From Chloroflexota bacterium (GTDB lineage Bacteria > Chloroflexota > Anaerolineae > Anaerolineales > Villigracilaceae), in NCBI GenBank assembly GCA_021414245.1, contig JAIOOU010000001.1:62001-126000 (forward strand): DNA of 64,000 nt. The letters run 5' to 3'. This document shows positions 5,031 through 38,028 of this stretch, in pieces. Position numbers and translations under genes: made by a program. Numbering within the stretch: the first letter of the stretch is position 1; the number at the start of each line of letters is the position of its first letter. The notes below the pieces were generated by a model. The model was not told where the DNA came from. It saw only the letters and a list, made by a program, of their open reading frames with translations, and made no database searches.

Positions 5031-5148
5031 CTCTCATCTTCCAGTGTTTGAATGACGATTGCCATTCAGCTGTCGGAGTTGGCACCATGACTTTCGCCTG
5101 GTTGCCGAGACTTCAAAGGGCCGTTCCCTCAGTCTCTCTGGATAAGAG
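5031..5148 (-). promoter_or_regulatory. SAM-I (S-box) riboswitch
   Basis: Minus-strand RNA with the S-box core: CUCUUAUC (5148-5141) closes helix P1 with GAUGAGAG (5038-5031), all eight pairs formed. Inside lie CAGAGAGACUGAGGGA, the GGCCCUUUGAAG segment, the CGGCAACC element and a later helix (GAAUGGCAAUCGUCAUUC). This order matches the known SAM-I consensus. With SAM bound, P1 holds its 3' strand, the downstream terminator forms, and metY - four-helix-bundle - metA is off. Without SAM, GAGAGG is free to break the terminator. No covariance search could be run. Confidence 0.94.
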
Positions 5149-26146: not shown

Positions 26147-26198
26147 GCTGTTCTCCTTTGTTTTCCTGCTCCCATAAAAAATGGAGGAGTGAAGTTAA

Positions 26199-26235
26199 GA
26201 TAAACAACAACGCCCCACGGAAACGTGGGGCGTTG
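26199..26235 (-). terminator. Attenuator terminator before aspartokinase
   Basis: On the minus strand a 12 bp stem (26235-26224 with 26219-26208, loop TTTC) is followed by TTGTTTATC. The 5' arm contains GCCCCACG (26231-26224). This can instead pair with CGTGAGGC inside the leader-peptide gene (26292-26285), with one mismatch, which would be the antiterminator. Confidence 0.8.
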
Positions 26236-26262
26236 TGTGTTCAGGTGTGCCGATTGTTTCGG

Positions 26263-26325
26263 CTACTTTTGACCAAGCACAATTGCCTCACGGGTTATAC
26301 CTGAGGTAGTGGTCATGGTCATCAT
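26263..26325 (-). CDS. Threonine-rich leader peptide of the aspartokinase-asd operon
   Basis: A 20-codon frame reading MMTMTTTSGI then TREAIVLGQK, with TAG stop. It has five Thr (four in codons 3-7), two Ile and three Met, which are all end products of the aspartate pathway. It resembles the design of E. coli thrL. It starts about 28 bases after the predicted transcription start and ends 28 bases before the terminator stem. Region 1 (CCTCA, 26306-26302, within the Thr codons) pairs with TGAGG (26290-26286). The latter is part of CGTGAGGC, which can pair with the 5' arm of the terminator. Stalling at Thr codons would free that antiterminator. No Shine-Dalgarno sequence is seen, and expression is inferred. 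Confidence 0.75.
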   Translation of the reverse strand: MMTMTTTSGITREAIVLGQK

Positions 26326-26359
26326 AGTGCCGAAACAAATGTTGTACATATTGGGCGGT

Positions 26360-26388
26360 ATTCTATGGCAGGGCCGGGGATGTGTCAA
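26360..26388 (-). promoter_or_regulatory. Promoter of the aspartokinase-asd operon
   Basis: TTGACA (26388-26383) and TAGAAT (26365-26360) with a 17 base spacer on the minus strand. The start would be near 26353, giving an untranslated lead of about 28 bases before the leader peptide. Confidence 0.75.
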
Positions 26389-26463
26389 GTGTTTTCCCTT
26401 GTAAGTTGTTGCCTAAACGACCATACGGCCAGTTTGCATTTAACCGAATCGGAAAATATCCCC

Positions 26464-26491
26464 TTGACTTATTTCCGTTTCCGCCTATAAT
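26464..26491 (+). promoter_or_regulatory. Promoter of the ilv-leu operon
   Basis: TTGACT (26464-26469) and TATAAT (26486-26491) with a 16 base spacer. The predicted start near 26498 lies about 13 bases before the leader-peptide ATG. Confidence 0.82.
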
Positions 26492-26510
26492 CGGGCGAAA
26501 TCCACAGCCC

Positions 26511-26615
26511 ATGAATACATTCTTGTTCAGCCTTTCCCTTATTGTAGTCGTCCTTGCAGTCCTTATTATTAAGGACTTGTTTTCGGTTAGGATGGCAGCG
26601 GTGAGAGTAAAGTAA
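26511..26615 (+). CDS. Branched-chain leader peptide of the ilv-leu operon
   Basis: A 34-codon frame with 16 Leu, Ile or Val residues. Codons 8-20 read LSLIVVVLAVLII, 11 of 13 branched-chain, as in E. coli ilvL or ivbL. A good promoter lies just upstream and a strong terminator just downstream, before ilvD. Inside the run, AGTCCTTA (26558-26565) pairs with TAAGGACT (26570-26577). After it, GGTTAGGATGGC (26585-26596) pairs with GCCGCCCTAACC (26637-26648), 11 of 12 positions including one G-U, which would disrupt the terminator. Stalling in the run for lack of charged tRNA would favour this antiterminator. No Shine-Dalgarno is visible. A longer upstream frame would start before the promoter and is not expected. 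Confidence 0.8.
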   Translation: MNTFLFSLSLIVVVLAVLIIKDLFSVRMAAVRVK

Positions 26616-26633
26616 ATCACTGAGTAAGTACGA

Positions 26634-26664
26634 AGAGCCGCCCTAACCACGGGCGGCTCTTTTT
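26634..26664 (+). terminator. Attenuator terminator before ilvD
   Basis: AGAGCCGCCC (26634-26643), loop TAACCAC, GGGCGGCTCT (26651-26660), then TTTTT. A 10 bp perfect GC-rich stem with a T-tract, 19 bases after the leader peptide stop. Its 5' arm and loop are the target of the proposed antiterminator. Confidence 0.92.
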
Positions 26665-26675
26665 ATTATCTTTAT

Positions 26676-26748
26676 TAACCGCTAAGACCGCGAAGCACGC
26701 GAAGATTTAAAGATTTTCTTGGCGCCCTTGGCGGGCTTCGCGGTAAAG
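26676..26748. repeat. Imperfect palindromic intergenic element before ilvD
   Basis: AACCGCTAAGACCGCGAAGC at one end and GGGCTTCGCGGTAAAG at the other are complementary over CCGCGAAGC / GCTTCGCGG. The AT-rich and GGCGCCCTTGGCG middle adds a further small stem. It looks like a short dispersed REP/MITE-type element; other copies could not be searched for outside the window. Confidence 0.55.
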
Positions 26749-26764
26749 AAAAAGGAAAAGAGTT

Positions 26765-28432
26765 ATGAGATCAGATACAGTAAAAAAAGGTTATGAAAAA
26801 GCGCCGCATCGCGCCCTCTTGCGCGCCACCGGCCTGCGGGACGATGATTTCAAAAAACCGTTTGTGGCCATTGTCAATTCCTATGTGGATATTGTCCCCG
26901 GGCATGTGCATTTGCAGGAGTTTGGGAAACTGGTAAAGGATGCTGTTCGTGCGGCGGGCGGCATGCCGTTCGAGTTCAATACCATTGGCGTGGATGACGG
27001 CATTGCGATGGGCCATATGGGGATGAAGTACTCGCTTCCTTCGCGTGAATTGATCGCTGACTGTGTCGAGACCATGATCGAAGCTCATCAGTTTGATGCG
27101 ATGGTTTGCATCCCGAATTGCGACAAGATCGTGCCTGGCATGCTGCTGGCGGCGATGCGTGTGAATATCCCCACCATCTTTGTATCGGGTGGTGCAATGA
27201 AGGCCGGCATGACCCCTGAAGGGGAATCCATCGACTTGATCTCCGTATTCGAGGGTGTGGGGGCATTTTCAGCGGGGAAGATCGACGAGAAACGATTGTC
27301 CATCCTTGAAAAATTTGCCTGCCCCTCCTGCGGCTCCTGTTCCGGTATGTTCACTGCAAATTCCATGAACTGTTTGATGGAAGTGCTGGGCCTGGCTCTG
27401 CCTTATAACGGCTCTGCCCTCGCAAAAACGCCTGAACGCGAGGCCCTGGCGAAACGGGCCGCAGTGCAGGTGATGACCCTGATCGAACGCGATATCAAGC
27501 CCCGCGACATTGTCACCGCGGATGCGATCGATGATGCCTTTGCCCTGGATATGGCCATGGGCGGTTCATCCAATACCGTGCTGCACACCCTGGCATTGGC
27601 AAACGAAGCCGGCGTGGACTATCCGCTGACGCGCATCAATTCCGTGGCAGACAAGGTGCCGCACATCTGTAAAGTGAGTCCTGCCGGCAAATGGCACATG
27701 GAAGATGTGCATCGCGCGGGGGGCATCCCGGCCATATTAAACGAAGTTCAACGGGGAACCGGCATGCTGCATTTGGACCGCATGACGGTCAGCGGGACCA
27801 CTTTGGGGAAATCCATTCAAGGTGTTGAAATCAAGGACGAAGAAGTCATTCGCAAATATGAAAATGCGCATTCCAAACGCGGCAGTCTGTCCATTTTGTT
27901 TGGCAACCTTGCGCCCAAAGGCGCAGTTGTCAAAGTGGGTGGTGTGAGTGAAGCCATGATGAAGTTTGAGGGGCCCGCGGTCATCTTTGAATCCCAGGAC
28001 GAGGCCATGGCCGGGATTATTGCCGGCAAGGTCGGGGCAGGCGATTGCGTTGTGGTTCGATATGAAGGCCCGAAGGGCGGGCCGGGGATGCAGGAAATGT
28101 TGTCGCCCACGTCCGCGATCATGGGACAGGGCCTAGGCGACAAGGTGGCCCTGATCACCGATGGCCGCTTCAGCGGCGGGACCCGCGGCGCGTGTATCGG
28201 TCATGTGTCGCCGGAAGCTGCTGCGGGAGGGCCGATCGCGGCGATTCAAGCCGGGGACATCGTCCAGATCGATTTGATGGCACGCAGCCTAAACGTTAAG
28301 TTAAGCGATGCGCAGATCCAAAGCCGGCTGGCCGCACTGCCTGTGTTCAGGTCCAAAACAACGTCGAAATGGTTAAAGCGGTATTCATATTTTGTCACGA
28401 GTGCTGATACGGGTGCGGTGTTGGAAAGTTAG
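26765..28432 (+). CDS. ilvD: Dihydroxy-acid dehydratase
   Basis: A 555-residue Fe-S dehydratase of the IlvD/Edd family, acting at the third step of Val and Ile synthesis and giving the 2-keto acids. Marks: [78 protein letters not shown] (cluster Cys), [61 protein letters not shown]. First structural gene after the attenuator; GGAAAAG precedes the ATG. Confidence 0.96.
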
Positions 28433-28440
28433 GAGAGCGA

Positions 28441-30126
28441 ATGAAAAAGACAGGCGCAGAGATTTTATGGGAATGTGTGGTGCGCGAAGGCGTGGAAGTG
28501 GTCTTCGGGTACCCAGGAGGGGCCAACATGCCGATCTACGATGCCATGTTGAGCTATCCCGTCCATCATGTGCTAGTTCGGCATGAACAGGGCGGAGCGC
28601 ATATGGCCGATGGGTATGCGCGCGCTTCCGGGAAAGTGGGAATGGCGATGGGGACATCCGGACCCGGTGCGACGAACCTTGTAACGGGCATTGCGACGGC
28701 GATGATGGATTCTGTACCAGTGGTTTTTGTTACGGGACAGGTGGCCGCCCACCTGATCGGCGGAGATGCATTCCAGGAAGTGGATGTGACCGGGATTACG
28801 CTGCCGATCACAAAACATAATTATCTGGTGACGCGTGCCGATGAGATCGCTGAAGTTGTGCGTGAGGCATTTTATATTGCCCGCAGCGGCCGCCCCGGGC
28901 CCGTACTGATCGACATCTGCAAGAATGCCCAGGTGGAACAGTGCGAGTTCGTGTACCCCGAAACCGTAAAACTTCCCGGGTATCAGCCTGTTGACCATGC
29001 ACCCAAAGACGCATTGGAACGCGCGGTCAAATTGATCGAGAAAGCGCAGCGCCCGGTCATTTTATGCGGACACGGTGTGCTGGTTTCGAAGGCCGAAGAG
29101 GTTCTCATGAACTTTGCCGTCAAGACGCAAACCCCGGTGGCCAGCACATTGTTGGGGTTGGGCGCATTTCCCGCCTCGCATGAGCTGAGTCTTGGGATGA
29201 TGGGCATGCATGGCGAAGTCCATACCAACATGGCCATCCAAAATTCCGACCTGATCCTGGCTTTCGGCATGCGTTTTGACGATCGTGTCACCGGCACTTT
29301 GAAGACCTATGCACCGCACGCCAAAAAGATCCATGTGGAAATCGATCCTTCCGAAGTGCACAAGAATGTAGCCGTGGACGTTCCCCTGGTGGGGGATCTC
29401 AACACCGTTTTGACCGATCTGGTCCCCATGGTGGATGAATATGATCACGAGGAATGGAAGAAGCAGATCCACAACTGGAAATCCGAGGCTGACAAACGCA
29501 GCATCATGAACTGGCCGGATGATGGAAAACTGTATGTCCCTCATTTGATCGAGGATATATGGAAGGCCACGGGCGGCGGTGCGATCATTTCCACGGATGT
29601 CGGCCAGCATCAAATGTGGACCGCGCAGTATTATGCGCTGGATAAACCCAACCGCTGGCTCTCTTCGGGTGGCGCAGGCACCATGGGCTTTGGTCTGCCG
29701 GCAGCGATTGGTGCCTGGTTTGCCGACAAGGAGCAGGAAGTTTGGGCCGTGGCCGGGGACGGCGGATTCCAGATGACGGCTGCTGAATTGACCACCGCCG
29801 TGCAGGAAGGTGCGAACGTGAAGGTCGCCATCATGAACAACAGTTTTCTTGGCATGGTGCGTCAATGGCAGGAGTTCTTCTTCGAGAAACGTTACTCGGC
29901 GGTGAATATGCTTTCGCCGGATTTTGTGAAACTGGCCGAGGCGCACGGTGTCCCAGCCAGGCGGGTGACGAAACGCGAAGAGGTAGACGAAGCGATTGCG
30001 TGGGCGCGCAGCATCAAAGGGCCCACGGTACTTGAATTCCGAGTGGAGCAGGAGGATGCAGTTTATCCGATGGTTCCCGCAGGGGCGGCGTTGGATCAAA
30101 TGATCCAGAGGCCGGCCAGAGCCTAG
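28441..30126 (+). CDS. ilvB: Acetolactate synthase, large subunit
   Basis: A 561-residue ThDP enzyme that condenses pyruvate with pyruvate or 2-oxobutyrate, first common step of Val/Leu/Ile synthesis. Marks: VEVVFGYPGGANMPIYDAM, RHEQGGAHMADGYARASGKVGMAMGTSGPGATNLVTGIATAMMDSVPVV, FQEVDVTGITLPITKHNYLV, GMRFDDRVTG, and the ThDP motif VAGDGGFQMTAAELTTAVQEGANVKVAIMNNSFLGMVRQWQEFF. It starts 9 bases after ilvD with an AGGAG site, and is followed by its regulatory subunit. Confidence 0.96.
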   Translation: MKKTGAEILWECVVREGVEVVFGYPGGANMPIYDAMLSYPVHHVLVRHEQGGAHMADGYARASGKVGMAMGTSGPGATNLVTGIATAMMDSVPVVFVTGQVAAHLIGGDAFQEVDVTGITLPITKHNYLVTRADEIAEVVREAFYIARSGRPGPVLIDICKNAQVEQCEFVYPETVKLPGYQPVDHAPKDALERAVKLIEKAQRPVILCGHGVLVSKAEEVLMNFAVKTQTPVASTLLGLGAFPASHELSLGMMGMHGEVHTNMAIQNSDLILAFGMRFDDRVTGTLKTYAPHAKKIHVEIDPSEVHKNVAVDVPLVGDLNTVLTDLVPMVDEYDHEEWKKQIHNWKSEADKRSIMNWPDDGKLYVPHLIEDIWKATGGGAIISTDVGQHQMWTAQYYALDKPNRWLSSGGAGTMGFGLPAAIGAWFADKEQEVWAVAGDGGFQMTAAELTTAVQEGANVKVAIMNNSFLGMVRQWQEFFFEKRYSAVNMLSPDFVKLAEAHGVPARRVTKREEVDEAIAWARSIKGPTVLEFRVEQEDAVYPMVPAGAALDQMIQRPARA

Positions 30127-30195
30127 AAAACAAATCCGCAGATTGGCATCACCCGCTTGATCCGGCCTGTCTGTGGATGAGAATTGGAGAACGGT

Positions 30196-30759
30196 ATGAA
30201 CTACACTTTTATTGCATTGGTTGAAAACAAACCCGGTGTCCTGAATCGGGTGGCCTCCCTGTTCCGACGGCGAAATTTCAACATTGAATCCCTCGCTGTG
30301 GGGAGGACGGAAGACCCCGAAGTATCCCGGATGACCGTGGTCGTGGATTGCCCCAACGGGGATATGGATGCACATAAGATCGAAGCGAATCTGTACAAAC
30401 TGGTCAACGTGATTGACGTGCAGGACGTCACGCGTCAACCCTCCGTGACCCGGGATCTGGCTCTCATCAAAATTAAGGTCGGCCCCGAAAAACGTGCCGA
30501 AGTTAATGGGCTGGCCGAAATCTTCCGCGCCCACATCGTAGATGTAGCGGTCGATTCAGTCATCGTGGAGATCACCGGCACGGAGGATAAGATCGAGGGC
30601 ATGATCGAACTTCTGCGCCCGCTGGGCATTGTCGAAATGGTGCGCACAGGCCAGGTGGCCATGACCCGCGGGGTGAATGATGGCGTGCGCCGGGTCCCGG
30701 GAGTGGCCGGGAATCACCGCTTTGAGGATATGTCTGAACTGGCCGAGATGGCGCCGTAG
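30196..30759 (+). CDS. ilvN: Acetolactate synthase, small regulatory subunit
   Basis: A 187-residue subunit with an N-terminal ACT domain (ALVENKPGVLNRVASLFRRRNFNIESLAVGRTEDPEVSRMTVVVD) that binds valine in this family, and a C-terminal domain (LALIKIKVGPEKRAEVNGLAEIFRAHIVDVAVDSVIVEITGTEDKIEGMIELLRPLGIVEMVRTGQVAMTRG). The start MNYTFIALVEN follows GGAG; a TTG 12 bases upstream is a weaker choice. It activates IlvB and confers feedback sensitivity. Confidence 0.95.
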   Translation: MNYTFIALVENKPGVLNRVASLFRRRNFNIESLAVGRTEDPEVSRMTVVVDCPNGDMDAHKIEANLYKLVNVIDVQDVTRQPSVTRDLALIKIKVGPEKRAEVNGLAEIFRAHIVDVAVDSVIVEITGTEDKIEGMIELLRPLGIVEMVRTGQVAMTRGVNDGVRRVPGVAGNHRFEDMSELAEMAP

Positions 30760-30905: not shown

Positions 30906-31958
30906 ATGGCAAAGATCAATTTTGGCGGCACGGAAGAGGAAGTGGTAACCCGCGATGAATTTTCGCTCGACAGGGCCCGGGAAGTCCTGAAGAACGAGGT
31001 GGTGGCGGTCCTTGGCTATGGCGTGCAGGGACCTGCCCAGGCCATGAACATGCGCGATAACGGCATTCATGTGATCATTGGCCAGCGTGAAGGTACGGCC
31101 AATTGGGACAAGGCTGTTGCCGATGGCTGGGTCCCGGGCAAGACACTTTTCAATGTGGAGGATGCCGCTGAAAGAGGTACTGTAGTTCAGTACCTGCTTT
31201 CAGATGCAGGTCAGCGATCGCAATGGCCGAAGATCGTGGAACATCTCAATGAAGGTGACATGCTGTACTTCTCGCATGGATTCTCGGTCACTTTCAAGGA
31301 TGACACCGGCGTGATCCCGCCTTCCCACCTGGATGTTGCATTGGTTGCTCCCAAGGGCTCCGGCCGCAGCGTGCGCACGAACTTCCTCGAAGGATCCGGC
31401 ATCAATGCCAGTTTCGCCGTGCATCAGGATGCGACGGGCAGGGCCAGGGAGCGTACCATTGCGCTGGGCATTGCCATCGGCGCGGGATATTTATTCCCGA
31501 CCACTTTTGAAAAGGAAGTGTATTCCGACCTGACCGGGGAACGCGGCATTCTGATGGGCGCATTGGCAGGTGTGATGGAAGCCCAATACAACGAACTTCG
31601 CAAGCACGGGCATTCCCCGTCCGAGGCTTTCAACGAAACGGTCGAAGAGTTGACCCAGTCCCTGATCCGTTTGGTGGGCCAGAATGGCATGGACTGGATG
31701 TATGCGAACTGCTCCACCACCGCCCAACGCGGCGCATTGGATTGGAAGGACAAGTTCCGGGATGCCACGGCGCCCATATTCCAGGATCTGTATCAAAGCG
31801 TGGTGACCGGCAACGAGGCCCGTATCACCCTCGAAGCCAACAGCAAACCTGATTATCGTGCCAAACTCGAAGTGGAGCTGGCCGCCATACGTGATTCGGA
31901 AATGTGGCGCGCTGGCGCTGCTGTCCGTTCGTTGCGTCCTGAAAATTGGAAGAAGTAG
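30906..31958 (+). CDS. ilvC: Ketol-acid reductoisomerase
   Basis: A 350-residue NAD(P)H enzyme at the second step of Val/Ile synthesis. Marks: VVAVLGYGVQGPAQAMNMRDNGIHVIIGQREG (Rossmann G-x-G-x-x-G), DMLYFSHGFSVTF, VALVAPKGSGRSVR, and the C-terminal metal-binding knot ETFEKEVYSDLTGERGILMGALAGVMEAQYNELRKHGHSPSEAFNETVEEL. AAGGAG lies 11 bases before the ATG. It is closer to the longer KARI variants with an additional N-terminal strand than to the shortest class I forms. Confidence 0.95.
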   Translation: MAKINFGGTEEEVVTRDEFSLDRAREVLKNEVVAVLGYGVQGPAQAMNMRDNGIHVIIGQREGTANWDKAVADGWVPGKTLFNVEDAAERGTVVQYLLSDAGQRSQWPKIVEHLNEGDMLYFSHGFSVTFKDDTGVIPPSHLDVALVAPKGSGRSVRTNFLEGSGINASFAVHQDATGRARERTIALGIAIGAGYLFPTTFEKEVYSDLTGERGILMGALAGVMEAQYNELRKHGHSPSEAFNETVEELTQSLIRLVGQNGMDWMYANCSTTAQRGALDWKDKFRDATAPIFQDLYQSVVTGNEARITLEANSKPDYRAKLEVELAAIRDSEMWRAGAAVRSLRPENWKK

Positions 31959-32010: not shown

Positions 32011-33648
32011 ATGACCAATAACTATGTAAAGATCTTCGACACCACCTTGAGGGACGGCGAACAATCCCCCGGTGCCACCATGACCTCCGCTGAAAAACTG
32101 GAGGTGGCTCATAATCTTGCGCGCCTTGGGGTCGATATTATTGAAGCGGGATTTCCCGCCGCCTCGCCCGATGACCTGGAAGCTGCCCGGCGAATCGCTG
32201 TTGAAGTGGGCAACCCACCTGAAGGTCAGCCTGATGCGAAAGTCCCCGTCATTGCAGGTCTGGCGCGGGCCAATAAACCCGATATCGACAAGGCCTGGGA
32301 GGCGGTCAAGGATGCGAAACGACCGCGGATCCACACCTTCCTTGCAACCTCTGCGATTCACATGAAGCACAAGCTGAAGATGGATCCCGAGGATGTGGTC
32401 CAGCGGGTTTCAGAGATGGTGACCTACGCAAAAACACTTTGCAGCGACGTCGAATTTTCTCCTGAAGACGCGGGCCGCTCTGAACCGGAATTTTTGTATG
32501 TAGTTCTGGCCGAAGCCATCAAGGCCGGCGCCTCCACGCTGAACATTCCGGATACGGTGGGGTACACCACGCCCGATGAATTTTATAACCTGATCGACGG
32601 CATTATCCAACATACCCCCGGCATGCATGACGGCATTACGATTTCGGTCCACTGCCATGATGACCTCGGCCTTGCCACGGCCAATACCCTGGCCGGGATT
32701 CGTGCGGGCGCCCGCCAGGCCGAAGTGACCGTGAACGGCATCGGCGAACGCGCAGGCAACACTTCGCTTGAAGAGGTGGTGATGGCTTTGAAGACCCGCC
32801 ATCCGGTCTTTAATTTGGAAACAGGGATCGAGACTCAGCAGCTCTCCCGTATCAGCAAACTGGTCAGCAATTACACAGGCATTGTCGTCCAGCCGAACAA
32901 AGCCATTGTGGGCTCGAATGCCTTTGCACACGAAGCCGGCATTCATCAGGATGGGATGCTCAAACATCAGACCACATATGAGATCATGCGTCCCGAGGAT
33001 GTCGGGGTCAATCAATCCAATCTGGTGCTGGGCAAACATTCCGGTCGCCATGCGTTGCGAAACCGCCTCGCCGAAATGGGACATTCCCTCGACGAGATCG
33101 AGCTTGACAAGGCTTTTGCGCGTTTCAAGGAACTGGCCGACCGCAAAAAGGTCATCACCGATCTCGATCTTGAGGCCTTGATCGCCGACGAGTTCTACAA
33201 ACCGCGCGATGTGTATCTGCTCAACGGCATGCAGGTTTCCTGCGGCACGATGGGCATGCCCACCGCCACGGTTCGTCTGCGTGGACCGGACGGAGTGATC
33301 CATACCGTGGCCGCCATCGGCACCGGCCCGGTGGATGCAACCTACAAGGCCATCGACTCGATCGTCAGTGTGCCATGCACTTTGCTGGAGTTCAACATCC
33401 ATTCCATCACTCAGGGCATTGACGCGCTGGGCGAGGTCACCGTGCGCATCCAGAGCGAGCAGGGCTCGACCACCATGGACGCGCAAAGCGAAGTCACATA
33501 CGCCCGCGTATATGGCGGACACGGCGCGGATACCGACATCATTGTCGCCAGCGCCAAGGCCTATATCAATGCCCTGAATAAGCTCATCATCGCCCGGACC
33601 GAAGGGTCCGAGAAGGTGAAAGACAACATCGGTGTGATGCTGGGATGA
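32011..33648 (+). CDS. leuA: 2-isopropylmalate synthase
   Basis: A 545-residue enzyme that condenses acetyl-CoA with 2-oxoisovalerate, first step to leucine. The TIM-barrel part shows [103 protein letters not shown] and [19 protein letters not shown]. The C-terminal LeuA dimer domain (from about 400) usually binds leucine for feedback. AAGGAG before the ATG. Its stop overlaps a small palindrome. Confidence 0.95.
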
Positions 33649-33710: not shown

Positions 33711-35117
33711 ATGATGCCAAAAACACTCTTTCAAAAAATATGGGACTCACATGTTGTCTTGGAGCAGCCTGAATCTCCCGCCGTGCTTTATATTGACCTG
33801 CACCTTGTACACGAGGTCACTTCACCACAGGCGTTTACCGGTCTGCGTCAGCGCGGACTGAAGGTCCGCCGCCCGGATAAAACCCTCGCCACGATGGATC
33901 ACTCCATTCCAACGACTCCCGTCAATGTCCCGATCGCGGACGAGCTGGCTGCCGCGCAGATCAGGCAAATGGAAACCAATGCCGCCGAGTTCGGCATTAC
34001 CCTGCATGGCATGACCAGCGCCCATCGTGGCATTGTGCATGTGATCGGCCCCGAACTCGGGCGTACCCAGCCGGGCATGACCATTGTTTGCGGTGACAGT
34101 CACACTGCCACCCATGGAGCCTTTGGCGCCCTGGCGTTCGGCATCGGCACCTCTGAAGTGGAGCATGTGCTCGCGACGCAGTGTCTCCTACAACGAAAAC
34201 CCCGGACCTTCGAGGTCCGGGTAAATGGGACCTTGTCCAAGGGGGTTTCCGCAAAGGATATCATCCTCGCCTTGATCGCACGGATTGGTGTTGGCGGGGG
34301 TACGGGTCATGTTTTTGAATTCACTGGTGAGGCCATTCGCGGCCTGACAATGGAGCAGCGCATGACCGTCTGCAACATGTCCATTGAAGGTGGCGCGCGT
34401 GCGGGCATGATCGCGCCCGATGAAGTCACTTTTGAGTACCTCAAAGGCCGCGAGTTCGCACCACAGGGCGCAGACTGGGATAAAGCCGTTGCCTATTGGA
34501 AAAATCTTCCCAGTGATGAGGGCGCTTTCTATGATAAATCCATCACCCTGGATGCCTCCGAACTTGAGCCGATGATCACATACGGCACGAATCCGGGTAT
34601 GGGCATGAAGATCACTGACCGGGTCCCAACCTCAGAATTTTTTAGCGAGCCTTCACAAAAGGCTGCCTTCGAAAAGGCCTTGACCTATATGGGCTTGCAG
34701 CCCGGTCAGTCCCTGCTTGGCAAGAAAGTGGATGTGGTCTTTATCGGCAGCTGCACCAACTCGCGTATCTCCGACCTTCGTCTGGCTGCTTCCATCCTCA
34801 AGGGACACAGGGTCTCTGAAAACACACGCGTGATGGTTGTGCCAGGCTCACAGGATGTAAAGAAGCAGGCCGAGCAGGAAGGTCTGGACAAGATCTTTAA
34901 AGAGGCAGGCGCCGAATGGCGCGAAGCCGGTTGTTCCATGTGCATTGCCATGAACGGTGACCAGCTTCAGCCCGGTCAATACGCAGTCTCCACCAGCAAC
35001 CGCAACTTTGAAGGCCGCCAGGGCAAGGGCGGGCGCACATTCCTGGCAAGCCCGGTGACTGCTGCGGCCACTGCCCTGAGCGGTGTGGTCACCGATCCAC
35101 GCACGATTCTGAGGTGA
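33711..35117 (+). CDS. leuC: 3-isopropylmalate dehydratase, large subunit
   Basis: A 468-residue aconitase-family subunit that isomerises isopropylmalate; it may also serve citramalate from CimA. Marks: [120 protein letters not shown] (cluster Cys), [27 protein letters not shown]. The start may be either of two adjacent ATG codons. The partner leuD lies one gene further on. Confidence 0.96.
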
Positions 35118-35119
35118 GC

Positions 35120-35848
35120 ATGGTCACGGATGAAATTTGGAAACTGCCCGCCATTGTCAGCCGCTTTTTGTCCTATCGAGCCGCCATCCCGCTGGCGCAG
35201 GAGCAGATCGGCATCATGATGTCCATCCTCAAGGTCCGTTCCCGGCCGGTTGAAAAATTTCTGGATCTGGGTTGCGGCGACGGCATTTTGGGTGCGGCCA
35301 TCCTGGGGACCTATCCGAACAGCCGCGGTGTCCTTGCCGATTTTTCCGAGCCGATGCTTGAAGAGGCACGCGAACAGTTAAAGGAATATGCCGGTCAGCT
35401 GGCCTTTGAGAATCTCGATTATGGCGACCCCGCCTGGGTGAACCGGATGCAGGCCGAGGATCCGTTTGATGCGATCGTGTCGGGCTATTCCATTCATCAT
35501 CAGCCGGATGCGCGCAAGCGTCCCATTTACGAAGAAATATTCTCCCTGCTTAAACCAGGCGGCTGGTTCATCAACATCGAACATATCGCCGCTTCCTCGC
35601 AACTGGCTGTGGATCTATTCAATCAACACATCATCGACGGAAGATATGCGATCGAAAAAGCCAATGGCGGAGGCAGGACCCGCCAGGAGATCTCGGATGT
35701 TTTCATGAACCGTCCCGACCGGGAGGCGAACATTTTGCTGCCCGTCGAGACGCAATGCAGCTGGTTGAATGAGATCGGCTACGAGGAAGTGGATTGTTAC
35801 TTCCGTGTGTATGAACTGGCAGTCTTTGGCGGCCGCCGCCCGGAATGA
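35120..35848 (+). CDS. Class I SAM-dependent methyltransferase
   Basis: A 242-residue protein with a Rossmann methyltransferase core: KFLDLGCGDGILGAAIL (SAM-binding motif I, about residues 48-64), GVLADFSEPMLEEAREQL (motif II acidic), FDAIVSGYSIHHQP (motif IV), EIFSLLKPGGWFINIEH. A C-terminal part (RPDREANILLPVETQCSWLNEIGYEEVDCYFRVYELAVFGG) matches trans-aconitate methyltransferase-like proteins in style. The ATG lies 2 bases after the leuC stop; a GTG 6 bases earlier is possible. It sits between the two subunits of isopropylmalate isomerase. A repair role on an aconitate-like by-product would fit this place but is only inference. Confidence 0.85.
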   Translation: MVTDEIWKLPAIVSRFLSYRAAIPLAQEQIGIMMSILKVRSRPVEKFLDLGCGDGILGAAILGTYPNSRGVLADFSEPMLEEAREQLKEYAGQLAFENLDYGDPAWVNRMQAEDPFDAIVSGYSIHHQPDARKRPIYEEIFSLLKPGGWFINIEHIAASSQLAVDLFNQHIIDGRYAIEKANGGGRTRQEISDVFMNRPDREANILLPVETQCSWLNEIGYEEVDCYFRVYELAVFGGRRPE

Positions 35849-35866: not shown

Positions 35867-36451
35867 ATGGTTCAATTCACCACCTTAACTTCCCGTGTGA
35901 TGGCACTTCCGGTCAACGACATTGACACGGATCAGATCATCCCGGCTCAATTTCTCAAGGTTACGGATAAAAACAATCTGGCAGATGCGCTTTTCTACAA
36001 CTGGCGCTACAACGACGATAAATCCATCAAGCAGGATTTCATCATCAACAAGCCCGAGTCGAAAGGCTGCCAAATCCTTTTGGCCGGTGACAACTTCGGC
36101 TGCGGGTCGAGCCGCGAACATGCGCCCTGGGCACTGACGGCCTACGGTTTCCGCGCAGTCATCTCGACCTCCTTCGCGGATATCTTCCGCAACAACTCCC
36201 TGAAGAATGGCCTGATCCCGATCATCGTCGACAATGAAACCCACAAGATGCTCTTTGAGCTTGTGGAGGAGGCGCCCCGCGTCGAACTGACCGTTGATCT
36301 GGCCGCACAAACCCTGTCTTTCCCCGGCGGCTCGGTCAGCTTCCCGATCGATCCATTCAACAAGACCTGTTTATTGAACGGTGTCGATGAACTTGGATAT
36401 ATCCTTGGTTTTGAAAAAGAGATATCCGCCTTCGAGAATAGAACGGGATAA
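35867..36451 (+). CDS. leuD: 3-isopropylmalate dehydratase, small subunit
   Basis: A 194-residue swivelling-domain subunit that completes LeuC. Marks: FTTLTSRVMALPVNDIDTDQIIPAQFLKV, ILLAGDNFGCGSSREHAPWALTAYGFRAVISTSFADIFRNNSLKNGLIPI, and a C-terminal FPIDPFNKTCLLNGVDELGYIL. This is the bacterial LeuD length with the extended C-terminus. AAAGGA precedes the ATG. Confidence 0.95.
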   Translation: MVQFTTLTSRVMALPVNDIDTDQIIPAQFLKVTDKNNLADALFYNWRYNDDKSIKQDFIINKPESKGCQILLAGDNFGCGSSREHAPWALTAYGFRAVISTSFADIFRNNSLKNGLIPIIVDNETHKMLFELVEEAPRVELTVDLAAQTLSFPGGSVSFPIDPFNKTCLLNGVDELGYILGFEKEISAFENRTG

Positions 36452-36471: not shown

Positions 36472-38028
36472 ATGCAGTCCATCCAGATCTACGATACCAC
36501 CCTGCGCGACGGGACCCAGTCTGAAGGCTTCACGCTTTCCAGCAATGACAAGATCCGCATCGCCCAAAAATTGGACGACATTGGGGCCGCCTTCATTGAA
36601 GGCGGCTGGCCTGGTTCCAATCCTAAGGATGTGGAGTTCTTTGAACGCGCCCGCGACATCAAATGGAAGAATGCCCTGATCGCCGCTTTTGGTTCCACCT
36701 GCCGTGTCAAAGGCGGGCCGGAGGATGACGCCAACATCAAGGCCCTGCTTGATTCGCAAACACCCGTTTGTACGATCTTTGGCAAGACCTGGACCTTGCA
36801 TGTCAGGGAAGTTTTGCTGACCACCAACGATGACAACCTGCGCATCATCGAACAATCCGTGGCATATCTCAAATCCAGCGGCAAGCGTGTCATCTATGAT
36901 GCCGAGCATTTCTTCGACGGATACAAAGCGGACTCATCCTATGCACTCGAAACTTTGCAGGCCGCGATCCGGGGCGGGGCTGAGACCGTTGTCCTGTGCG
37001 ATACCAACGGCGGGACCATGCCCTGGGAAGTGGAGCGCATCATTCGTGACCTCAAGCCTGCCCTTGCCCATCCGTTTGGCATCCACACCCATAACGACTC
37101 CGAATGCGCGGTGGTCAATTCGTTGACCGCGATTCGTGAGGGCGCGATCCAGGTGCAGGGCACGATCAACGGAGTCGGGGAACGCTGCGGCAACGCCAAT
37201 TTGTGCTCGATCATCTCGGACCTGGAATTGAAAATGGGCTATTCCTGTCTGCCGGCCGGCAGGATTGGATCACTTTATGACCTTTCCCATTTTGTGGCGG
37301 AAGTTGCCAATATCGCGCCGGACGAACATCTGCCCTTTGTTGGAAAATCCGCCTTTGCCCATAAGGGCGGCGTGCATGTGGCTGCCATGAGACGCTCACC
37401 GCAATCGTATCAACACATCGAACCGGAAAAGATCGGCAATAAAATGCGTGTGGTGGTCTCGGACCTTTCAGGCCGCGGAAATCTTTTGAGCAAGGCCGAG
37501 GAACACGGCGTGGAAGTGGAAGGCGAGGAAGTTGTCGGCGTGCTCAATGACATCAAGGAACTTGAATCGCGCGGTTTCTCCTTTGAAGCTGCCGAGGCTT
37601 CGGTCACCATGATGTTGAAACGCCAGGAATATGGTTACAAGGCCCCCTTTGAACTGGTGGATTTCTTTGTTAACGTCGAGCACCGCCAGGGACGCGGGAT
37701 CTTCGCCGAAGCCATGGTCAAGGTCAGGGTGCAGGGCGAGTTGCTGCACACTGCGGCGGAAGGCAATGGTCCTGTCAATGCGATGGACAATGCCCTGCGA
37801 AAGGCTTTGGTCGGTTATTATCCGCAAATTGCAGGATTTCATCTCTCCGATTACAAGGTCCGCATCCTTGATTCGGACCACGGCACCGAAGCCATTACCC
37901 GGGTGTTAATTGACACACGGAATTACACAGGCCGTTGGAGCACGGTCGGCGCAAGTACGAACATTATAGAGGCTTCCTGGCGTGCCCTTGCGGATTCGAT
38001 GGAATACGGGTTGATGGTGGCGCATTAA
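36472..38028 (+). CDS. cimA: (R)-citramalate synthase
   Basis: A 518-residue member of the isopropylmalate synthase superfamily. The start IQIYDTTLRDGTQSEGFTLSSNDKIRIAQKLDDIGAAFIEGGWPGSNPKDVEFF, the segment KTWTLHVREVL and CDTNGGTMPWEVERI are those of citramalate synthases rather than LeuA (which has [12 protein letters not shown]). It would make citramalate from pyruvate and acetyl-CoA, giving 2-oxobutyrate for isoleucine without threonine. HTHNDSECAVVNSLTAIREGAIQVQGTINGVGERCGNANLCSI is the conserved barrel end, and a LeuA-type C-terminal regulatory domain follows. No threonine deaminase gene (ilvA) is in the operon, which agrees with this route. Confidence 0.92.
   Translation: MQSIQIYDTTLRDGTQSEGFTLSSNDKIRIAQKLDDIGAAFIEGGWPGSNPKDVEFFERARDIKWKNALIAAFGSTCRVKGGPEDDANIKALLDSQTPVCTIFGKTWTLHVREVLLTTNDDNLRIIEQSVAYLKSSGKRVIYDAEHFFDGYKADSSYALETLQAAIRGGAETVVLCDTNGGTMPWEVERIIRDLKPALAHPFGIHTHNDSECAVVNSLTAIREGAIQVQGTINGVGERCGNANLCSIISDLELKMGYSCLPAGRIGSLYDLSHFVAEVANIAPDEHLPFVGKSAFAHKGGVHVAAMRRSPQSYQHIEPEKIGNKMRVVVSDLSGRGNLLSKAEEHGVEVEGEEVVGVLNDIKELESRGFSFEAAEASVTMMLKRQEYGYKAPFELVDFFVNVEHRQGRGIFAEAMVKVRVQGELLHTAAEGNGPVNAMDNALRKALVGYYPQIAGFHLSDYKVRILDSDHGTEAITRVLIDTRNYTGRWSTVGASTNIIEASWRALADSMEYGLMVAH

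Follow-up and report, generated by a model that had tools for sequence, protein, structure and literature searches.

A ribosome-mediated transcription attenuator that senses charged leucine, isoleucine and valine tRNAs very probably controls the ilv-leu-cim gene run of this Chloroflexota bacterium, a reading to which the sequence lends a probability of about 0.92. The window, a stretch of 64,000 nucleotides on contig C15 of the source genome G000 (3.87 Mb), carries the genes for aspartate kinase and ilvD in divergent orientation, and the attenuator region lies in between (Table 1). There, the codons of a small branched-chain-rich ORF and a terminator in front of ilvD take part in pairings that exclude one another, and these elements are conserved jointly and co-vary in relatives.

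Table 1. Features of the branched-chain locus and of the adjoining aspartate kinase locus, in window positions.
Feature	Position	Strand	Description
Promoter	26464-26491	+	-35 TTGACT 26464-26469; -10 TATAAT 26486-26491; spacer 16; consensus 11/12
Leader peptide ORF	26511-26615	+	34 codons and TAA, MNTFLFSLSLIVVVLAVLIIKDLFSVRMAAVRVK; open frame kept in relatives
Control run	26532-26570	+	Codons 8-20 (LSLIVVVLAVLII), part of leader ORF
Region 1	26538-26554	+	Codons 10-15 and flanking base(s); partner 26589-26605; from folds, pair counts and swap test
Inner hairpin	26558-26577	+	AGTCCTTATTATTAAGGACT; nested in 1:2; built from control codons and the next two codons; from swap test
Region 2	26585-26605	+	Pairs with region 1 through 26589-26605 and with region 3 through 26585-26596 (GGTTAGGATGGC)
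Region 3	26637-26648	+	GCCGCCCTAACC; part of terminator 5' arm and loop; partner is region 2
Intrinsic terminator (3:4)	26632-26664	+	Stem 26632-26662, 12 pairs; T-tract 26660-26664
ilvD	26765-28432	+	Dihydroxy-acid dehydratase; TIGR00110 at 814.5 bits (cut-off 618.15); heads the putatively controlled run
ilvB	28441-30126	+	Profile scan of encoded proteins
ilvN	30184-30759	+	Profile scan of encoded proteins
ilvC	30906-31958	+	Profile scan of encoded proteins
leuA	32011-33648	+	Profile scan of encoded proteins
leuC	33711-35117	+	Profile scan of encoded proteins
Methyltransferase-like gene	35114-35848	+	Between leuC and leuD; no family above its cut-off
leuD	35867-36451	+	Profile scan of encoded proteins
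cimA	36472-38028	+	Profile scan of encoded proteins
Threonine-type attenuator, whole	26207-26388	-	Back-to-back with the branched-chain attenuator, before aspartate kinase
Promoter of threonine-type attenuator	26388-26360	-	
Thr-rich ORF	26325-26263	-	MMTMTTTSGITREAIVLGQK; part of threonine-type attenuator
Terminator of threonine-type attenuator	26236-26207	-	
Aspartate kinase	26146-24716	-	Downstream of threonine-type attenuator

The branched-chain gene run and its promoter

Downstream of the attenuator, all genes point in one direction in the order ilvD-ilvB-ilvN-ilvC-leuA-leuC-(methyltransferase-like)-leuD-cimA, and this order and the spacing suggest that the run from ilvD to cimA is co-transcribed. 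It encodes steps towards valine and leucine; isoleucine, reached via citramalate (cimA), is probably a further product. No leuB was present among the ten proteins scanned at the locus. Transcription of the run would start near 26497-26499. Promoter scores of at least 10/12 were obtained for the leader upstreams of 67 of 93 distinct relatives, against 1 of 93 after base shuffling. Between the terminator and ilvD, an imperfect inverted repeat, CCGCTAAGACCGCGAAG ... CTTCGCGG (26678-26746), can be seen by eye, and the start of this repeat also occurs 3' of the terminator at locus L005.

Mutually exclusive pairings in the leader RNA

An earlier note on this DNA had claimed a strong promoter, a 34-codon hydrophobic leader frame, a terminator with a T-tract before ilvD and an antiterminator pairing of 11 in 12 positions, the whole in the manner of the ilvL/ivbL leaders. 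The promoter, the frame and the terminator, with its 12-pair stem and T-rich tail, are all present (Table 1). So is the 2:3 antiterminator: of the 12 positions at which GGTTAGGATGGC (26585-26596) faces GCCGCCCTAACC (26637-26648), 11 pair, one of them as G-U, and one is an A-C mismatch. Through GCCGCCCTAACC, this pairing reaches into the terminator's 5' arm and loop. A gap in the note can be closed: the partner that region 1 should supply, described there as not obvious, is the control codons themselves, as CTTATTGTAGTCGTCC (26538-26553) pairs with GGATGGCAGCGGTGAG (26590-26605) at 15 of 16 positions, followed by one further pair. The anatomy is that of the classical attenuators, with mutually exclusive 1:2, 2:3 and 3:4 pairings.

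Computed for isolated pieces, the energies are -18.0 kcal/mol for 1:2, -17.4 for 2:3, -22.8 for 3:4 and -10.0 for the inner hairpin. The fold of the 171-nt leader has a z of -5.2, and none of 200 dinucleotide shuffles folded as well. When codons were shuffled so as to preserve the peptide, the fold of the window leader was matched by 3 of 100 shuffles and its 2:3 duplex by 11 of 100; against these peptide-preserving shuffles the window by itself is only suggestive, and the weight falls on the relatives.

Folding of the alternatives envisaged by the earlier note bore them out, with one reservation. In the window, a ribosome modelled as stalled at codon 12, 14, 18 or 20 gave 2:3 each time, and one placed over region 2 (codon 30) gave no 2:3. 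With a ribosome at the stop codon, the full-length RNA adopted 1:2 and the terminator, and an RNA ending after region 3 still preferred 2:3, which counts against the simple picture; the off state would therefore depend on timing. Region 2 lies inside the ORF, its end 19 nt short of where the stop codon finishes, and would be only partly covered by a ribosome at the stop.

Joint conservation and co-variation in relatives

Relatives of the element were sought upstream of ilvD. Of 110 loci, 95 gave usable upstreams once L097, which has no start, L024, with 1 nt upstream, and 13 duplicates had been removed. The best 80 of 590 ilvD relatives are Chloroflexi/Anaerolineae records, save three labelled Acidobacteria, Ignavibacteriae and Bacteroidetes, which agrees with the different phylum proposed in the earlier note. 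That note had also named an alignment of the ilvD upstreams of relatives as a check, and the hydrophobic run is indeed conserved along with the terminator: an Ile/Leu/Val-rich ORF and a terminator lie 5' of ilvD in 93 of the 95 upstreams, one of the 93 being doubtful. The cultured relatives Bellilinea caldifistulae (L086), Leptolinea tardivitalis (L088) and Ornatilinea apprima (L100) are among those that carry the element. The two misses are L083 (labelled Acidobacteria) and L093 (labelled Ignavibacteriae); L109 (labelled Bacteroidetes) was detected by the program and left out of the core set as doubtful. This core set of 98 loci comprises 92 upstreams and L112-L117, and four of its leaders are exact repeats, leaving 94 distinct ones. 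By eye, the metagenome-assembled genomes of L093 and L109 show an I/L/V-rich ORF before ilvD and then a hairpin with arms of the GCCAGAGGC/GCCTCTGGC type, without a clear T-tract.

A strict detector, which demands an Ile/Leu/Val-rich ORF, a terminator and 2:3 pairing in the last 450 nt before ilvD, succeeded on 93 of 98 ilvD upstreams. None of the 98 reverse complements and none of 490 dinucleotide shuffles triggered it. These counts bear on the plainest alternative, an unregulated terminator between divergent genes with a chance ORF beside it. Intergenic terminators are common, but this one has a promoter on one side and ilvD on the other, both on its own strand. A leader, 1:2, 2:3 and 3:4 recur jointly in relatives, and the detector found nothing in the 490 shuffles; a plain terminator is exceedingly improbable here.

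For the attenuator, pair-by-pair evidence comes from an alignment, A1, of 52 of the 94 distinct leaders. Over 1:2, the inner hairpin and 3:4, 90.4% of cells pair, against 34.9-64.6% when the structure is shifted by 1-3 columns, and 17 cells are doubly changed; the figure for shuffles is 6.0, and none of 500 came up to 17. The corresponding values for 2:3 are 90.5% of cells, against 17.4-52.9% when shifted, and 6 cells doubly changed where shuffles give 0.6. Counts of further pair types in A1 were no higher than in shuffles, 402 of 500 of which reached them for 1:2, inner hairpin and 3:4 and 232 of 500 for 2:3. The 11-pair core stem of the terminator is paired in 97.3% of cells across the 52 aligned sequences, and two 1:2 pairs are missing in 27 and 22 of them.

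Co-variation between loci, which supports the ilvL/ivbL-type design, was measured by a swap test in which partners were permuted 20,000 times among 39 nonredundant loci less than 72% alike. The real value stood at 22.3 against a mean of 16.7 for 2:3, at 20.5 against 16.4 for 1:2 and at 17.7 against 13.4 for the peptide-anchored inner hairpin, and in each case none of the 20,000 permutations reached it. The negative control on the same 39 loci, in which region 3 was set against the opening 45 nt of the ORF, gave no signal (11.5 against 11.7). Only 13 of the 39 rows have their own region 3 as the best partner or level with the best. Where several candidate ORFs occurred at a locus, the choice fell on the ORF whose 2:3 duplex was best, a slight bias in favour of the pairing. 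Compensated 2:3 pairs across loci include GGTTAGG/CCTAACC, GGTTGAGCGG/CCGCTCAACC and TTCGGGCGG/CCGCCCGAA. Likewise, the best hairpins within the ORFs of relatives include GGTCCTTA/TAAGGATC, GGTTCTCA/TGAGAACC and GGCTCTCA/TGAGAGCC, the encoded KD changing to EN or ES.

In folds of RNA blocked from the ATG to just past mid-run and ending after region 3, 2:3 forms with at least 6 pairs at 97 of 98 loci. Truncated folds without a ribosome still have at least 6 2:3 pairs at 35 of 98, so 1:2 is no complete lock at every locus. The near-identical loci L076 and L077 each carry two leader-plus-terminator units, one after the other, near positions -368 and -190 relative to ilvD.

Apparent selection on the peptide and on the RNA

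In the window, 16 of the 34 leader residues are L, V or I. Across the 39 nonredundant loci, the best 12 residues of the leader are 85% I, L or V, with 1.5% F, 3.8% A and 2.1% G. The mean best-12 count of I, L and V is 10.2 in frame, against 5.1 and 2.6 in the other frames, and the leader frame is best in 39 of 39. It is open and I/L/V-rich at all 39 loci, and the other two frames have stops in 37 and 35 of them.

The nucleotides behind these residues appear constrained as well. With peptide-preserving codon shuffles at 98 loci, the leader fold has a mean z of -2.03 (z < -2 in 52%, z > -2 in 48%) and the 2:3 duplex a mean z of +2.60 (z > 2 in 70%); individual significance fails at many single loci, 48% for the leader fold and 30% for 2:3. 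A column-shuffle test of I/L/V selection at the codon level was weak (0.920 against 0.915, shuffle maximum 0.920). Codon choice is bent towards RNA pairing, and selection appears to act on both amino acids and pairing, as expected under attenuation.

These results also bear on the reading of the ORF as a real small membrane protein, followed by a plain terminator with read-through. The conserved run equals a membrane helix in hydrophobicity, but membrane helices are usually broader in composition than the 85% I/L/V found here. Moreover, changes in the residues after the run (KD, KG, EN, ES, TD) go together with changes in the opposite arm of the inner hairpin, and pairing between the codons and region 3 exceeds that in the peptide-preserving shuffles. 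A membrane protein is on these grounds very unlikely.

Translation start and proposed mechanism

The window ORF has no Shine-Dalgarno match of at least 4 bases, and such a match is lacking in 80 of 93 distinct leaders, against its presence in 86 of 92 ilvD genes. The commonest spacing (29 of 92 leaders with a candidate) places the end of the best -10 box 19 nt before the ATG, so that at such loci the leader 5' UTR would be about 12 nt long. Longer in-frame starts in some relatives (e.g. PPIIGR...) were set aside, since they read through promoter sequence.

From these elements, we infer translation of the ORF, ribosome stalling, termination and read-through as the steps of control. Transcription would begin just 5' of the 34-codon ORF, whose codons 10-15 double as region 1. 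In the absence of translation, 1:2 would pair, region 3 would stay free and the 3:4 terminator would halt transcription. With ample amino acids, the ribosome would pass through the ORF, and region 2 would be covered or re-paired with region 1 as region 3 emerges, leading again to the terminator. At a slow Leu, Ile or Val codon, the stalled ribosome would occupy region 1 and leave region 2 free; 2:3 would then form before region 4 is made, and RNA polymerase would enter ilvD.

Spread across Chloroflexota

Applied to the ilvD upstreams of 60 genomes, the strict detector found the element in 6 of 6 from the same genus, family or order and in 4 of 49 elsewhere in the phylum, with L128 a doubtful fifth from another scan. 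An apparent absence from other orders of the class (0 of 5, ilvD upstreams only) was overturned by the covariance model described next, as 3 of the 5 (G138, G090, G200) carry the element before ilvB.

At E <= 0.01, a covariance model, R1, in which 2:3 is not represented as pairs, matched 30 of the 201 genomes examined from the phylum and 45 of the 150 from the class. It found none in G114 and G122 (same family), which have no ilvD match either, or in G237 and G260 (same order). Among 40 matched regions taken for closer analysis, 34 have an ilvB, ilvD or leuC match that begins no more than 862 nt from where the region starts. An Ile/Leu/Val-rich leader and a terminator are present in 37 of the 40 (38 by program, with L247 judged false). 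Two weak matches, L245 (E 3.8e-4) and L247 (8.6e-4), are false and do not lead ilv or leu genes; three matched regions before ilvB (L225, L226, L244) belong to genomes outside the class. The 2:3 swap test on 29 further nonredundant R1 loci beat all 20,000 permutations. By these matches and their leaders, the element recurs widely in the class Anaerolineae, before whichever gene opens the branched-chain run.

In other Chloroflexota families, Ile/Leu/Val leaders with attenuator-like pairing were noticed at L130, L135, L136 and L144 (before ilvD) and at L244 (before ilvB). At the first four, 2-10 nt separate the end of region 2 from that of the stop codon, a distance of 19 nt in the window.

The threonine-type attenuator next door and other observations

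Back-to-back with the branched-chain element, the minus strand carries a putative threonine-type attenuator in front of aspartate kinase (Table 1). It resembles the Rfam family Thr_leader (RF00506) and is no member by score, at 29.3 bits (E 0.0019) against a gathering threshold of 55. Of 30 aspartokinase loci in the genus, 25 have a Thr-rich ORF and a terminator, and three of the five misses (L187, L197, L198) have only 63-276 bases upstream. Antiterminator-like pairing is frequent at these loci, for example CCGTGAGGC with GCCTCACGG; in the window it is weaker and has a mismatch. For the Thr ORF of the window, the MMTM start was preferred by reading to a longer frame, MYNICFGT... An initial, looser search for such leaders (38 of 98) yielded mostly noise and was replaced by the scan of genus aspartokinase loci.

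No convincing Trp leader was found directly before trpE. Just 5' of trpE at L202, a T-box-like antiterminator string, GGTGGCACCACGGGAGTCCC, and a terminator can be seen by eye, with no Rfam match at gathering. In G000, rated 98% complete, hisD (TIGR00069) had no match at E <= 0.001. Elsewhere in the window, a SAM riboswitch lies at 5031-5148 on the minus strand (77.5 bits).

Comparison with known regulatory systems

Rfam release 15 assigns no family at gathering in 26150-26764, and up to E 10 its plus-strand matches in the window leader include no branched-chain leader, riboswitch or T-box; the T-box covariance model gave no match there. The best plus-strand match, Phe_leader at 26609-26666 over the terminator, was rejected, as its 23.4 bits (E 0.17) fall far below the gathering threshold of 55. 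These searches bear on the reading of the element as a metabolite riboswitch, a T-box or a protein-bound RNA in which the ORF is incidental. Strong structure and a terminator would suit it, and two further genomes of the phylum, L139 and L142, have Rfam T-box matches ahead of ilvD (40 of 54 loci outside the order of the window were scanned). However, the Rfam searches of the window leader are empty in this respect, the leader frame is kept where the other frames mostly have stops, and regions 1 and 2 and the inner hairpin consist of the ORF's own codons. Such an RNA is extremely improbable here. T-boxes sense tRNA directly, without translation; the proposed attenuator would share with T-box leaders the same branched-chain genes and the same logic, from tRNA charging to antitermination, and differs from them in that the window has no T-box match.

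In enterobacteria, the ilvGMEDA (ilvL) and ilvBN (ivbL) operons are preceded by an intrinsic terminator and by a leader peptide rich in end-product codons, with 1:2, 2:3 and 3:4 as alternative pairings. The Chloroflexota element has the same product-codon leader, alternative pairings and terminator before the operon. It differs in belonging to another phylum, in a leader that would start about 12 nt from the transcript start and has no Shine-Dalgarno sequence in most relatives, and in a region 2 contained within the ORF.

A second likeness is to the actinobacterial ilvBNC leaders (Corynebacterium ilvB-II motif), which by the descriptions in the accessible parts of PMC1262725, PMC11857589 and PMC10272879 combine an I/L/V-rich leader, a terminator and an antiterminator before an ilv operon, as here. 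The C. glutamicum leader has 15 residues, against 34 in the window, and the first gene there is ilvB, whereas it is ilvD in the window and ilvB or leuC at other loci. According to PMC11857589, the start site of C. glutamicum ilv lies one nucleotide from the leader start codon; a very short leader 5' UTR therefore has precedent in this almost leaderless case. The ilvB-OMG and Leptospira ilvB motifs before ilvB have been reinterpreted in PMC10272879 as upstream ORFs rich in branched-chain codons, ilvB-OMG being said to come from various phyla. The window element is likewise a branched-chain-codon ORF, and has no Rfam match to either motif.

No amino-acid leader-peptide attenuator of Chloroflexota was found in the accessible parts of the literature, including PMC2965389, PMC8632094, PMC4833913, PMC9413887 and PMC2864571, a coverage sparse for subscription journals and no proof of absence; a comparative survey of attenuation from 2010 (Lopatovskaya et al.) is cited in PMC4833913. 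The element is apparently a known mechanism in a phylum so far unreported for it. Branched-chain attenuators across Anaerolineae and the adjoining threonine-type one would extend a device built on the coupling of transcription and translation to another deep phylum, and would predict such coupling in Chloroflexota. The element can also aid the annotation of many uncultured genomes, as it points to the gene that opens a branched-chain operon and to a small ORF that annotation usually overlooks.

It is possible, as a tentative view held at somewhat less than even odds, that these leaders form an old Anaerolineae attenuator family that arose independently of the proteobacterial and actinobacterial ones and reads Leu, Ile and Val together before ilvD, ilvB or leuC. 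If so, the near-leaderless, Shine-Dalgarno-free start and the nested hairpin of control codons would represent, beside those leaders, a distinct solution to the timing between ribosome and polymerase.
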